Below, one piece after another: positions 25,635 through 28,044 of a DNA stretch of 54,420 nt; within the stretch, counting starts at the first letter, position 1; every line of letters begins with the position of its first letter. The translations under genes and the position numbers were made by a program. The notes beneath the pieces were generated by a model, which did not search any database, was not told where the DNA came from, and saw only the letters and a program-made list of their open reading frames with translations. Source of the DNA: an uncultured Prochlorococcus sp. (GTDB lineage Bacteria; Cyanobacteriota; Cyanobacteriia; PCC-6307; Cyanobiaceae); contig CACLFQ010000003.1 of NCBI GenBank assembly GCA_902606255.1, positions 1-54,420 of the forward strand. Direction: 5' to 3'.

Positions 25635-25706
25635 TCCTCGGTAGCTCAGCGGTAGAGCGATCGACTGTTAATCGATTGGTCGCAGGTTCGAATCCCGCCC
25701 GGGGAG
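25635..25706 (+). tRNA. trnN: tRNA-Asn (GTT)
   Basis: The 72-base cloverleaf folds with acceptor TCCTCGG/CCGGGGA, D-stem GCTC/GAGC, anticodon stem ATCGA/TCGAT around loop CTGTTAA (anticodon GTT, asparagine), and T-loop TTCGAAT. The discriminator is G and CCA is not encoded. The T-stem GCAGG/CCCGC has an A.C mismatch at its middle pair; a paired version would read CCTGC. Thirteen bases at the 3' end (25696-25708) recur at 26984-26996, so the gene is the likely attachment site of the island that follows. Confidence 0.96.
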
Positions 25707-25708
25707 TT
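25696..25708 (+). repeat. att-like copy 1 (inside tRNA-Asn 3' end)
   Basis: CGCCCGGGGAGTT covers the last 11 bases of the tRNA plus two flanking bases. It is identical to 26984-26996. Integration at a tRNA 3' end keeps the tRNA intact and leaves a copy at the far end of the insert. Confidence 0.75.
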
Positions 25709-25733
25709 CTATAACGAGTTCAAATCAGTTTAG

Positions 25734-25757
25734 GAGACCTCAAGGTCTCTTTTTTTT
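25734..25757 (+). terminator. Intrinsic terminator of tRNA-Asn
   Basis: The stem GAGACC/GGTCTC with loop TCAA is followed by eight or nine T residues, 28 bases after the tRNA. It is the first of three comparable att-plus-terminator arrangements in this region. Confidence 0.85.
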
Positions 25758-25831
25758 GACCCTCACAGGGGTTTATAGGTTTTGGAGAAGACCAGAATAG
25801 ATCAATAATAGTCATTTTTTCTTAAAATGTC

Positions 25832-25852
25832 TTCTTGTTGTTTTCTTGTTTT
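25832..25852 (+). repeat. 21-bp direct repeat, left copy
   Basis: This T-rich 21-mer, which includes TTGTTGTTTTCTTG, is repeated exactly at 26892-26912 in the same orientation. The two copies bracket the 311-aa gene. The sequence is low in complexity, but a 21-base exact match at both ends of one block is unlikely to be chance. A recombinase arm site or a duplication scar are both possible. Confidence 0.6.
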
Positions 25853-25878
25853 ATTAATCGAGAAATTAACTTAAAGAA

Positions 25879-26814
25879 TTATTTAATAAAGTTATAATTT
25901 TGAAAGACATATTTACTAACTCTGCCTCCTTTCCTGTATTTGACATATCTTATCAAGTCACCTTCATTACCATTCCATTCAATTGTGAAAATTTGTAGTC
26001 CATTTTCACCAAGTTCATTATAAATGTACTCTCTATCTAAGAAATAAGTTTTTATTGAGCATTTATATTCTTTATCAATATATCTTGGATTAATAACTGC
26101 CCACTTTGACTTGTCAAAGACATAGTAATCACCATTAAACACTTCTCCTTGATTGTTCCTATATGATTGACATTTTTTTATCTCCTCTGCTTCAGATTTT
26201 TCTTGAAATTCATATTCTTTTTTAAAAGATAAGTTTTTACTTGTTGTCTTATTAGTTGATTGTCTTAATGTTGCTGATGGATCTATGATTAAAAACCCTG
26301 ATAAAGGGATTACAAAAAATAGGAAAAATAATCCTAAATATGTTACTAACGCACCTGCTTTGTCATTTTCATCCTTATTTTGATCTTTTTTTCTCTTTGT
26401 ATTTTTAGTTTTTTTCTTATTCTCTCCCCTAACTCTCTCTTCCTTTAATATTCTCAATTCATCCATTAGTTGTTGGTTTTTTGTATCTGTTTTTTTCGTT
26501 ATTTTTTCAGTCTCAGTTAAGGAATAACCAGTTAATTTCTGATCTACTAAATCATCTATAAATTTCTTGGTTTCTTTTTTTAGGAGAGGATCATCTAGGA
26601 AATTAACCAGATTGGCAATTAAACTGCCTTGAGCAGATCTTACTTTAACGACGTTATTAGATTTAAGAAGGATATCAGTATTTATATTGCCATTAATTTT
26701 GTTGAGAATTTGTCTAGCAATTGAAAAATTCTTAACTTCAAGCGATTTTTTGAAAACCTCTTTATCTAAAGTTTTTTTTTCAATAATCAACTTTATGAAT
26801 TCAAATCTATTCAA
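25879..26814 (-). CDS. Unrecognised island protein with central membrane anchor
   Basis: I do not recognise this 311-residue protein. Residues 1-125 are helical and charged, with no signal peptide. Residues 126-152 are a Lys-rich linker (ENKKKTKNTKRKKDQ), residues about 154-177 are a single hydrophobic membrane helix, and 200-311 form a soluble, Tyr/Lys/Asp-rich, probably beta-rich domain. The basic linker before the helix predicts N-terminus in, C-terminal domain out. It is the only gene of the first island block, bracketed by 21-bp repeats and att copies. A 16-bp perfect palindrome lies 33 bases before its ATG. Confidence 0.65.
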   Translation of the reverse strand: MNRFEFIKLIIEKKTLDKEVFKKSLEVKNFSIARQILNKINGNINTDILLKSNNVVKVRSAQGSLIANLVNFLDDPLLKKETKKFIDDLVDQKLTGYSLTETEKITKKTDTKNQQLMDELRILKEERVRGENKKKTKNTKRKKDQNKDENDKAGALVTYLGLFFLFFVIPLSGFLIIDPSATLRQSTNKTTSKNLSFKKEYEFQEKSEAEEIKKCQSYRNNQGEVFNGDYYVFDKSKWAVINPRYIDKEYKCSIKTYFLDREYIYNELGENGLQIFTIEWNGNEGDLIRYVKYRKGGRVSKYVFQNYNFIK

Positions 26815-26847
26815 GACGATTATTCAAGAAACTTTTGGAGATTCTAA

Positions 26848-26863
26848 TTCTTTTTAAAAAGAA
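26848..26863. promoter_or_regulatory. 16-bp perfect palindrome upstream of the 311-aa gene
   Basis: TTCTTTTTAAAAAGAA is self-complementary and lies 33 bases upstream of the minus-strand ATG at 26814. It could be an operator or just A/T-run chance; no regulator gene can be matched to it. Confidence 0.3.
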
Positions 26864-26891
26864 GTCTATCTTTTATAATTTTTCAGGTTAT

Positions 26892-26912
26892 TTCTTGTTG
26901 TTTTCTTGTTTT
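26892..26912 (+). repeat. 21-bp direct repeat, right copy
   Basis: Exact copy of 25832-25852. It also forms the start of the roughly 100-bp repeat that ends in att copy 2. Confidence 0.6.
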
Positions 26913-26999
26913 TTTGATTTATATGGGTTTCAAAAATGATCATAAGTATCCATTTCAGTTCTTAAATGTTCAATAATATATCTCGCCCGGGGAGTTTAT
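26899..26999 (+). repeat. About 100-bp att-flanking repeat, copy A
   Basis: Aligns by eye over about 100 bases with 27945-28044 at roughly 75-80% identity. Shared blocks include TGTTTTCTTGTTTT, ATGATCATAA, AGTTCTTAAA, TATCTC and GGAGTTTAT. Each copy ends in the att-like tRNA segment. This is more than the tRNA match alone and suggests that both ends came from related elements. Confidence 0.7.
26984..26996 (+). repeat. att-like copy 2 (exact repeat of tRNA-Asn 3' end)
   Basis: CGCCCGGGGAGTT matches 25696-25708 base for base, in the same orientation and 1288 bases downstream. The preceding bases (TATCT) diverge from the tRNA T-loop, so only the 3' end was duplicated. Confidence 0.78.
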
Positions 27000-27022
27000 T
27001 TCTATTGAATCTTATCTGTGTT

Positions 27023-27056
27023 AGACATCATGCGATTTTCATATGATGTCTTTTTT
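27023..27056 (+). terminator. Intrinsic terminator after att copy 2
   Basis: A nine-base-pair stem AGACATCAT/ATGATGTCT with an 11-base loop is followed by a T run. It sits 26 bases after att copy 2, close to the 25-base distance from copy 1 to the tRNA terminator, although no tRNA body precedes it. Confidence 0.75.
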
Positions 27057-27124
27057 AGTGCTGACCTTAATTTTGTGGAAAAAGGATAAATCATACGTTT
27101 TCATGTTACACAATATTCTCCTTT

Positions 27125-27298
27125 TTATTGGTCGGGAAGATCTAAACCCCTAATTTTCTTCCATCTTGAATACATGTATCCCATATAGATTTCTTGCATA
27201 TAATTCTTTGCACCATTTTCTAATATATTTTTTGAAAATTTATTATTGAACTTCTTACTTGCAAGGAGTTCTTTTCTCCAATCTATTTCTTCTTTCAT
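27125..27298 (-). CDS. Small island protein, 57 aa
   Basis: A short reading frame with start ATG 27298-27296 overlapping the TGA of the 59-aa gene upstream (ATGA). The product is soluble and basic, beginning MKEEIDWRKELLASKKF and ending KIRGLDLPDQ. The W-R-K-E-L-L stretch resembles W-Q-K-E-F-L in the 59-aa neighbour, so the two may be distant duplicates. I cannot assign a family. Coupled starts are the main support for it being real. Confidence 0.55.
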   Translation of the reverse strand: MKEEIDWRKELLASKKFNNKFSKNILENGAKNYMQEIYMGYMYSRWKKIRGLDLPDQ

Positions 27299-27474
27299 TG
27301 CTGTTGCTGCTCTTGTATTTTCTTCAATCTTTCGTATTCAACATGTAGAACATCTAAACGCCAAGCATCTTTCAATCCTTTGACACCTCCCATTAAGAGT
27401 TTTGCATCTGAAGGTGGATGAGATTTCATATTCAAGAACTCTTTTTGCCAAGATTTGTCATCCCATTGAGTCAT
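27295..27474 (-). CDS. Small island protein, 59 aa
   Basis: This 59-residue frame opens MTQWDDKSWQKEFLNMKS and ends in a helical, Gln-rich EYERLKKIQEQQQQ tail. Its ATG overlaps the stop of the HTH fragment (ATGA) and its own stop overlaps the next ATG, so three frames are chained on the minus strand. It is soluble, with no known domain. The coupling and the shared W-x-K-E motif with the 57-aa product argue for genuine genes. Confidence 0.58.
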   Translation of the reverse strand: MTQWDDKSWQKEFLNMKSHPPSDAKLLMGGVKGLKDAWRLDVLHVEYERLKKIQEQQQQ

Positions 27475-27554
27475 ACTGCTAATTTCTCTCTTTTAAATAT
27501 AGTTGCAACCGTTGATCTACTCATACCTAATGCTCTTCGAATAGTTCCATAACT
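27471..27554 (-). pseudogene. Truncated helix-turn-helix DNA-binding remnant
   Basis: The frame between an in-frame TAA and the TGA at 27471-27473 encodes SYGTIRRALGMSRSTVATIF followed by KREKLAV. This reads as a helix-turn-helix of the resolvase/transposase type (IRRALGMSRSTV). There is no upstream start in frame except ATT or the internal ATG, so the N-terminal part has been lost. Its stop overlaps the 59-aa ATG. It is either a decayed regulator or integrase piece, or a leader-like micro-ORF. Confidence 0.5.
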
Positions 27555-27562
27555 TTAATAAA

Positions 27563-27880
27563 TTAGTTAATTATTTTTTTAATTTTTTCTAAATTCCATT
27601 TATCAAATATTAATTTCATTTCTCTTTCGTAGTATCTTACTTTCTTTGAGAAAGGTAGTTGTTGAACAATTATCCCAAAGGGAAATTTAAAAAAAGAAGA
27701 AACATAAACTATATAAAACTCGATAAATGAAGGTTTTGGTGGGAGAGGTAAATTTTTTACATATGCCCAATCAATGCATGGGTTTAGTTGCTTATCACTT
27801 GCGATAATATTTTTTTTACATCTCCACCAAGAGAATAGATAAATGCAAATAAAAATCGGTAGTGGAAGAAGTCGCAACAT
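27563..27880 (-). CDS. Unrecognised island protein, 105 aa
   Basis: The product starts with a hydrophobic segment (LRLLPLPIFICIYLFSWW, residues 2-19), either a signal anchor or one membrane helix. An aromatic- and Pro-rich body follows (WAYVKNLPLPPKPSFIEFYIVYVSSFFKFPFGIIV), then a basic C-terminus. No family is recognised. It is upstream of the HTH remnant on the same strand with eight bases between, so all four frames may be one transcript ending near 27125. Base composition is as A/T-rich as its neighbours. Confidence 0.5.
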   Translation of the reverse strand: MLRLLPLPIFICIYLFSWWRCKKNIIASDKQLNPCIDWAYVKNLPLPPKPSFIEFYIVYVSSFFKFPFGIIVQQLPFSKKVRYYEREMKLIFDKWNLEKIKKIIN

Positions 27881-27944
27881 TAAATATCAAGGATAATTTT
27901 TCTTCTTATTGTTTTTATAAATGATAGTTTAGTTTTTCTTGAAA

Positions 27945-28044
27945 TGTTTTCTTGTTTTATAGTTTCATATGGTTTCAAATATGATCATAAATATTTAGAT
28001 AAGTTCTTAAAGGGTCATAGAGGTATCTCTCCCTAGGAGTTTAT
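27945..28044 (+). repeat. About 100-bp att-flanking repeat, copy B, with degenerate att copy 3
   Basis: Partner of 26899-26999. It ends TATCTCTCCCTAGGAGTTTAT, where copy A ends TATCTCGCCCGGGGAGTTTAT: the tRNA-like core has two changes (G to T twice). Copy 3 therefore looks like an older, decayed attachment site. Confidence 0.68.

Follow-up and report, generated by a model that had tools for sequence, protein, structure and literature searches.

What has placed two further copies of the 3′ end of a tRNA gene downstream of that gene, and what are the blocks of DNA that lie between them? The locus that raises this question is found in a 54,420-nucleotide stretch of DNA (hereafter the window) from the genome of an uncultured Prochlorococcus sp. 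(GCA_902606255.1, contig CACLFQ010000003.1, positions 1 to 54,420; genome G000 in our set). It begins with a tRNA-Asn(GTT) gene, trnN (25634..25707, + strand; ARAGORN and Rfam RF00005), and ends at a response-regulator gene which we take to be rpaA. Two blocks lie behind the tRNA gene, block 1 (25709-26996) and block 2 (26997-28041), and comparison with other Prochlorococcus genomes indicates that they are probably non-autonomous elements, integrated at the tRNA-Asn 3′ end by a tyrosine integrase supplied in trans.

The core of the repeat is the final 13 nt of tRNA-Asn, CGCCCGGGGAGTT. It occurs exactly at 25696..25708 (+), where it is the tRNA 3′ end itself and the left boundary of block 1, and again at 26984..26996 (+), the boundary between the two blocks. 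These are the only two exact copies of the 13-mer in the whole genome (885,726 bases, 56% complete), one further place with 2 mismatches being present on another contig. The right boundary is marked by a third copy, CTCCCTAGGAGTT (28029..28041, +), which differs from CGCCCGGGGAGTT at 3/13 positions and alone is not significant; it closes a 74-nt repeat that is 77% identical to 26926-26999, the segment ending with copy 2, and sits where the flank of relatives lacking the blocks starts. A hairpin followed by a T-run stands behind each of the three copies (at ~25733, ~27023 and ~28064), the first alone being listed by a stricter terminator scan. An earlier reading of the letters alone (the sequence-only reading) had already pointed to the twice-repeated tRNA end and to a separate terminator behind each copy, and both observations hold; the repeats also prove not to be common elsewhere in the genome, a case which that reading had named as contrary to it. 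The tRNA gene is intact, with a direct repeat of its 3′ end at the far boundary, as is characteristic of integration at a tRNA 3′ end by a tyrosine recombinase.

A search of 151 Prochlorococcus genomes gave near full-length tRNA-Asn matches in 120 besides the window (counted by hand). Stretches behind the gene were taken from 115 of these, five close to contig ends being left out, and together with the window they make up 116 loci. In 24 genomes the window flanks joined without the blocks (25634-25708 plus 28042-29128) align over their full length between tRNA and rpaA, with identities of 77.7-83.5%, and the native right flank as far as the response-regulator gene (28042..29128, +) is contiguous with the tRNA in these empty relatives, a further hallmark of tRNA-end integration by a tyrosine recombinase. 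Counted by locus, rpaA is on the same contig in 100/116, window included, and in 64 of those 100 it was possible to locate the start of the flank; 26 were scored as empty, one of them (G004) wrongly because the left end of a unit resembles the flank, which leaves 25/63. Among the 36 loci with an unplaced flank start, alignment to the flank begins no earlier than about position 290 in 19. The window's closest relatives by rpaA carry other inserts at the same site: G149 (95.8% identical) has 216 bp and G048 (95.5%) has 5.1 kb, and these have ends, but no cargo, in common with blocks 1 and 2. Empty junctions in relatives, taken together with different inserts in the closest of them, establish that both blocks are insertions. 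The sequence-only reading had inferred two or more insertions here and had proposed comparing trnN-rpaA content across Prochlorococcus; that comparison, with its 24 end-to-end matches and a repeat unique in the genome, bears the inference out, and the contrary outcome, relatives without any empty junction, is not what we find.

Unit boundaries across the loci were set by 12-nt core copies with at most 2 mismatches (3 for the last copy in the window). Such extra tRNA-end copies delimit 81 units, from 169 bp to 14.6 kb, in 60/116 loci; 46 units are no longer than 1.5 kb, and 17 are mini-units of 169-257 bp. Within the 446,886 positions of the 116 loci the core is present beyond the tRNA itself in 47 exact, 19 one-mismatch and 14 two-mismatch copies, 80 in all, against 0 for the reversed core and 0-2 for six shuffled ones, so that chance is ruled out for the core as a whole. 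The trnN locus is an insertion hotspot, a docking site for interchangeable cassettes.

These cassettes share an anatomy. A terminator follows the core in 109/115 tRNA-proximal and 16/21 internal left ends, compared with 26/452 control segments, and the left-end terminator of a new unit replaces the one that it displaces. Right ends carry an arm, a tandem repeat of 10-13 bp with no more than 1 mismatch, in 43/81 cases against 4/208 control segments, and 38 of these 43 begin 90-97 bp ahead of the core. Its sequence varies by family (ATGGTGGGGAA, ATGTTCGGGAT, AGTTAGTGTAA, TTTCTTGTTG and others). A left arm of ~11 bp, mostly at +66 to +150, tends to match the right arm of its own unit: in the 66/81 units that could be scored (fifteen could not), own-left and own-right arms agree at a mean of 9.47 of 11 positions, compared with 8.23 after permutation (sd 0.10, maximum 8.58 in 2000). 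Lambda-type attachment sites have arm-type integrase sites on both sides of the core. The paired arms look as such sites flanking a core would, and they are putative integrase-binding sites on this analogy. Tandem repeats also accompany tRNA-Pro, at 20/46 partial tRNA copies in 20 stretches, picked for having several partial tRNA copies listed, against 4/138 controls; 13 of the repeats lie at -102 to -110 and 7 are one and the same repeat at -140. The tRNA-Pro(TGG) arrays (L237-L256) contain tRNA copies 47-56 nt long.

Block 1 is a complete unit of this kind, with core, terminator (25733..25757, +; terminator scans), left arm, one cargo gene, matching right arm and core. Its left arm, TTCTTGTTGTTTTCTTGTTTT (25832..25852, +; +124 from the core), is a 21-mer that recurs perfectly at 26892 within the right-arm tandem repeat (26891..26912, +; -94 from the core), and a search allowing up to 3 mismatches finds one further match in the genome, on another contig. 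The pairing score is 11, the maximum. The left 145 bp recur in G048 (89.7%) and G080 (86.0%), and the likeness stops beyond them. The cargo is a 311-aa open reading frame (ORF) on the - strand (25879..26814), the sole ORF of at least 60 aa in the block, with one membrane span by eye and no Pfam or PADLOC match. The N-terminal 113 aa of its product are 50% identical to the start of a protein adjoining tRNA-Ser in G030. That tRNA-Ser(CGA) gene (L235 3224-3310) has repeats at +124 and +135, counted from its end; a second tRNA-Ser end was not found in the fetched G030 stretch.

Block 2 combines a left end and cargo from one family with the right end of a second. Over 960 bp its left part (26997..27937, +) shares 90% identity with the left part of a 3.2-kb unit in G132 with GGTCGGG arms, and over 106 bp its right part (27938..28041, +) shares 84% with the right end of the G149 insert, which has TTTTCTTG arms; block positions 18-941 match the second unit of G132 and 928-1033 the right end of G149. 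The switch of family, at ~27937, falls on a degenerate right arm (27933..27958, +) recognised by eye, the automated scan having scored another repeat, at -72. Judged from these alignments, block 2 is a chimera of two unit families joined at the right arm. A terminator occupies its left end (27023..27056, +), and similar left ends stand directly behind the tRNA in G104, G050 and G042; a single GGTCGGGAA (27130..27138, +) is likely the decayed left arm, by comparison with the G050 unit, whose similar left end carries ATGGTCGGGAA at +130. The ends of block 2 are unmatched, with an arm score of 9 that is equalled by 75% of other left ends. Its cargo, a 105-aa ORF on the - strand (27563..27880), has no Pfam or PADLOC match, and a dN/dS of ~0.14-0.15 in the 4 usable comparisons out of 9 indicates that the gene is under purifying selection. 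The best 80 of 143 relatives of the protein are all from Prochlorococcus or Synechococcaceae. We considered the gene as a marker specific to trnN and rejected this: relatives are present in 90/151 genomes and at trnN in just 12, their surroundings elsewhere being varied. Segments of ~320-460 bp around it recur at 92-97% in several Prochlorococcus surroundings, in the manner of a gene-sized mobile block.

Where the recombining enzyme might come from was addressed by a six-frame scan of the trnN loci with 20 integrase seeds. Long intact tyrosine integrases are present in four units (G021, G035, G050 and G082), with arms of ATGGTSGGG, ATGTTGGG or TTAGTCC type among the integrase-bearing units, and a fragment lies beside an excisionase in G022; 76/81 units have no integrase match, and none is found among the 46 units of 1.5 kb or less. 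Twenty-five units have a gene for an AlpA-type excisionase (assigned by Pfam PF05930 for one member) close to the right end, and 21 of these units are integrase-less. The excisionase genes point away from the right core, with the ORF start at most 125 bp from it in 21/25. The window itself contains no PF00589 match, the ORFs of both blocks have no Pfam match, and neither recombinase nor excisionase was detected in block 1 by ORF and Pfam search. This upholds the statement of the sequence-only reading that no recombinase is present here: the sole PF00589 match in the genome is on another contig, in a weakly matching gene of 389 aa (L230; G000:C2:22640-23065), and ORFs of equal length occur in many of the genomes listed. 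An undetected integrase inside the blocks is unlikely, block 2 having no ORF above 105 aa and block 1 only its 311-aa ORF. PMC10187409 describes an integrase family in this genus that known models missed, and a divergent integrase overlooked by the seeds is possible in large units. Integrases of the trnN type were also sought elsewhere, with matches in 4/20 fetched loci, two of which have a 12-bp tandem repeat ~490 bp upstream. The cargo of the window was considered as defence genes and rejected, the 311-aa and 105-aa proteins matching neither PADLOC nor Pfam models; all five larger cargo proteins scanned from other trnN units (L104, L124, L122, L163 and L077) have PADLOC matches, either to type I or type IIG-like restriction genes or to some other defence-like gene.

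Evidence for movement comes from a ~975-bp integrase-less unit with TATTCGTC arms that is present in several genomes. Between G004 and G144 this unit is 98.1% identical over 962 bp, compared with 88.2% for the upstream flanks and 90.4% for rpaA, and it stands first in the array of G004 and second in that of G144; between G001 and G063 the unit is 97.5% identical, against 90.6 and 90.2% for the flanks. Among 22 unit pairs with at least 80% coverage (counted by hand), 15 show greater identity in the unit than in either flank. These contrasts point clearly to lateral movement of one integrase-less family between divergent lineages. A different kind of event is suggested by a 169-bp mini-unit in G107, the one mini-unit whose arm junction was compared: its left end is in register with G075 up to the arm, beyond which its right end and that of a 1.9-kb unit in G128 are identical. 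This is what recombination between a single unit's two arms would be expected to leave, and may be likened to a solo long terminal repeat (LTR), although the opposite direction, a mini-unit gaining cargo, may apply instead.

In the ancestral junction the tRNA runs directly into 28042, and the history that we consider probable comprises at least three events since. A tyrosine integrase made elsewhere (by a related integrase-bearing unit, another element or a phage) would bind the 11-bp arms at both ends of an incoming element and recombine its tRNA-like core with the tRNA gene, each entry restoring the tRNA, bringing a new terminator and shifting older units downstream. The first arrival would have had TTTTCTTG-type ends and the second GGTCGGG-type ends; block 2 would then have come from a deletion that stopped at the arm and fused the two, and block 1 would have been the last to enter. 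The sequence-only reading had offered satellites mobilised in trans, decayed remnants or cargo left after partial excision; block 1, with matched arms at both ends, fits the first of these, and block 2 fits a remnant, and a chimeric one.

Several observations weigh against mobilisation in trans. Core copy 3 is degenerate, and the right end before it passes the arm threshold only through the repeat at -72, which is not the arm. More widely, 38/81 right ends fail the 1-mismatch threshold and the own-left arm match is below 10 in 25/66 scored units, while the arm and pairing counts include related units repeatedly. No helper integrase for the window was found in G000 (56% complete), and no integrase-bearing unit with TTTTCTTG arms was seen among the trnN units. 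The evidence for spread is narrow: 14 of the 15 favourable pairs belong to the TATTCGTC-arm family in six genomes, the other being G053/G067, and in five pairs (G001/G057, G042/G073, G069/G127, G042/G064 and G073/G148) the unit is less alike than both flanks; of the remaining pairs, G006/G041 is mixed and one lies inside a single genome. The contrast of 98% with 88-90% could also arise by homologous recombination within the repeats. Finally, no viral copies of the units were seen in scans of viral contigs. The protein of block 2 likewise has no relative among viral contigs; of 1452 phage records that resemble the region, the 10 listed do so solely across the tRNA gene, and no phage relative of the G050 integrase reaches 60% identity (27% among the matches listed). 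A pattern of core, spacer and terminator found in 2 IMG/VR contigs was put down to chance, the two being of identical sequence, coding by eye and without a tRNA gene.

The alternative that survives best, though we judge it unlikely, is that the blocks are cis-mobilizable elements (CIMEs): decayed elements that have lost their integration and transfer genes, keep the left and right attachment sites attL and attR, and move, if at all, only together with an accreted neighbour. The definition in PMC5704250 fits. Block 1 retains both sites in the absence of such genes and has CIME anatomy; block 2, with its ends unmatched, satisfies the wording only formally, and its chimeric make-up, unmatched arms and degenerate core are nevertheless a state that the term describes. 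The integrase fragment beside an excisionase in G022 looks like a unit in decay, and lateral spread of a lone unit is well documented for one family only. Mere decay is argued against because integrases are rare among all units: to be without one is the rule (76/81), and 0/46 of the short units have a match. The perfect 21-mer common to both arms of block 1, the purifying selection on the gene of block 2 in 4 comparisons, and an integrase-less unit at 98% in divergent hosts, albeit of another family than the window's blocks, speak in the same direction. Considerably less probable is the view that homologous recombination shuffles the cassettes, with the tRNA, core and similar ends serving as short homology between the arrays of different strains. 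Block 2 and at least one mini-unit (G107) are indeed joined at arm repeats; yet units start at a tRNA-like core again and again, some contain integrase genes, and crossovers alone would not hold paired arms at a constant spacing relative to the core. An origin in coincidental repeats and normal intergenic drift behind the tRNA gene, to which the 3/13 mismatches of copy 3 by itself might lend colour, is scarcely credible in view of the unique 13-mer, the empty sites, the arms and the 80 core copies against 0-2 in controls.

A broader scheme can be put forward more tentatively, and we hold it to be conceivable rather than probable: a two-component cassette system at Prochlorococcus tRNA genes, in which a few integrase units would serve many integrase-less ones, some equipped with an AlpA-type directionality factor. 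The 11-bp arms, fixed in position and diverse in sequence, would act as address codes and, since a unit has the same arm at either end, recombination between arms would swap or shed cargo; the results would be chimeras like block 2 and solo-arm units of 169-257 bp, which lack cargo and would remain as docking sites.

The native flank has features of its own. Its first 60 bp (28042-28110) resemble left ends of the TATTCGTC type, and the flank may itself have begun as the left end of a unit long ago. Ahead of rpaA (28149-28946) a 27-nt repeat around AACAGTAAATAGAAC occurs three times, with two copies 78% like the third, and a 119-aa ORF in the native spacer (28366-28725) matches DUF7326 (PF24012, E 1.4e-18).

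The islands of this abundant marine phototroph turn over fast, and how gene-sized cassettes move without an enzyme of their own is the question addressed here. Paired arms at fixed distances provide a signature with which to find units, predict a common recombinase and tell complete units from chimeric ones, and the arm anatomy, together with the integrases of trnN units, makes mobilisation in trans directly testable.

Among known systems, tycheposons, reportedly described by Hackl et al. (2023, Cell 186:47), share the genus, and the blocks are likewise mobile islands at a tRNA gene in Prochlorococcus. So far as the accounts consulted go, tycheposons integrate at tRNA genes and form variable islands, with a tyrosine recombinase in members; the portion of a citing paper that we used gives 4-200 kb with a recombinase gene (PMC10872708). 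They differ in that 46/81 trnN units are 1.5 kb or less and 76/81 have no recombinase match, and we do not class the blocks as tycheposons because a tyrosine recombinase is absent from them. CIMEs and their accretion resemble the arrays in consisting of att-flanked tandem units without integration or transfer genes, but are presented in PMC5704250 as decay products moved in cis, whereas the trnN units comprise an integrase-less majority, many paired arms and one family that has spread. Miniature inverted-repeat transposable elements (MITEs) and hitcher elements, to judge from the passages of PMC11389934 consulted, are like the cargo-less units of 169-257 bp in comprising little beyond the ends needed by an enzyme acting in trans; the mini-units have integrase-type attachment ends at one tRNA rather than transposase inverted repeats. 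Our search of the literature found no elements combining arm-type sites and an excisionase with the lack of an integrase, which does not in itself make the arm rule new. Additive flexible genomic islands of Methylophilaceae, 330 bp to 42 kb in size with tRNA-Lys-end repeats, and gene cassettes targeted to tRNA in Actinomarinales are described in PMC10872708 and PMC7771536, which in the parts consulted contain no analysis of ends, arms or recombinase supply. The ssrA islands of Dehalococcoides (PMC3146451) stand in tandem behind one RNA gene with 3′-end copies between them, 15 without integration modules; others have a serine recombinase, and paired arms are not described in the portion consulted. 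On the extracts of these sources available, the nearest parallels to the trnN cassettes are the Dehalococcoides ssrA islands and the tRNA-end cassettes of other streamlined marine bacteria.

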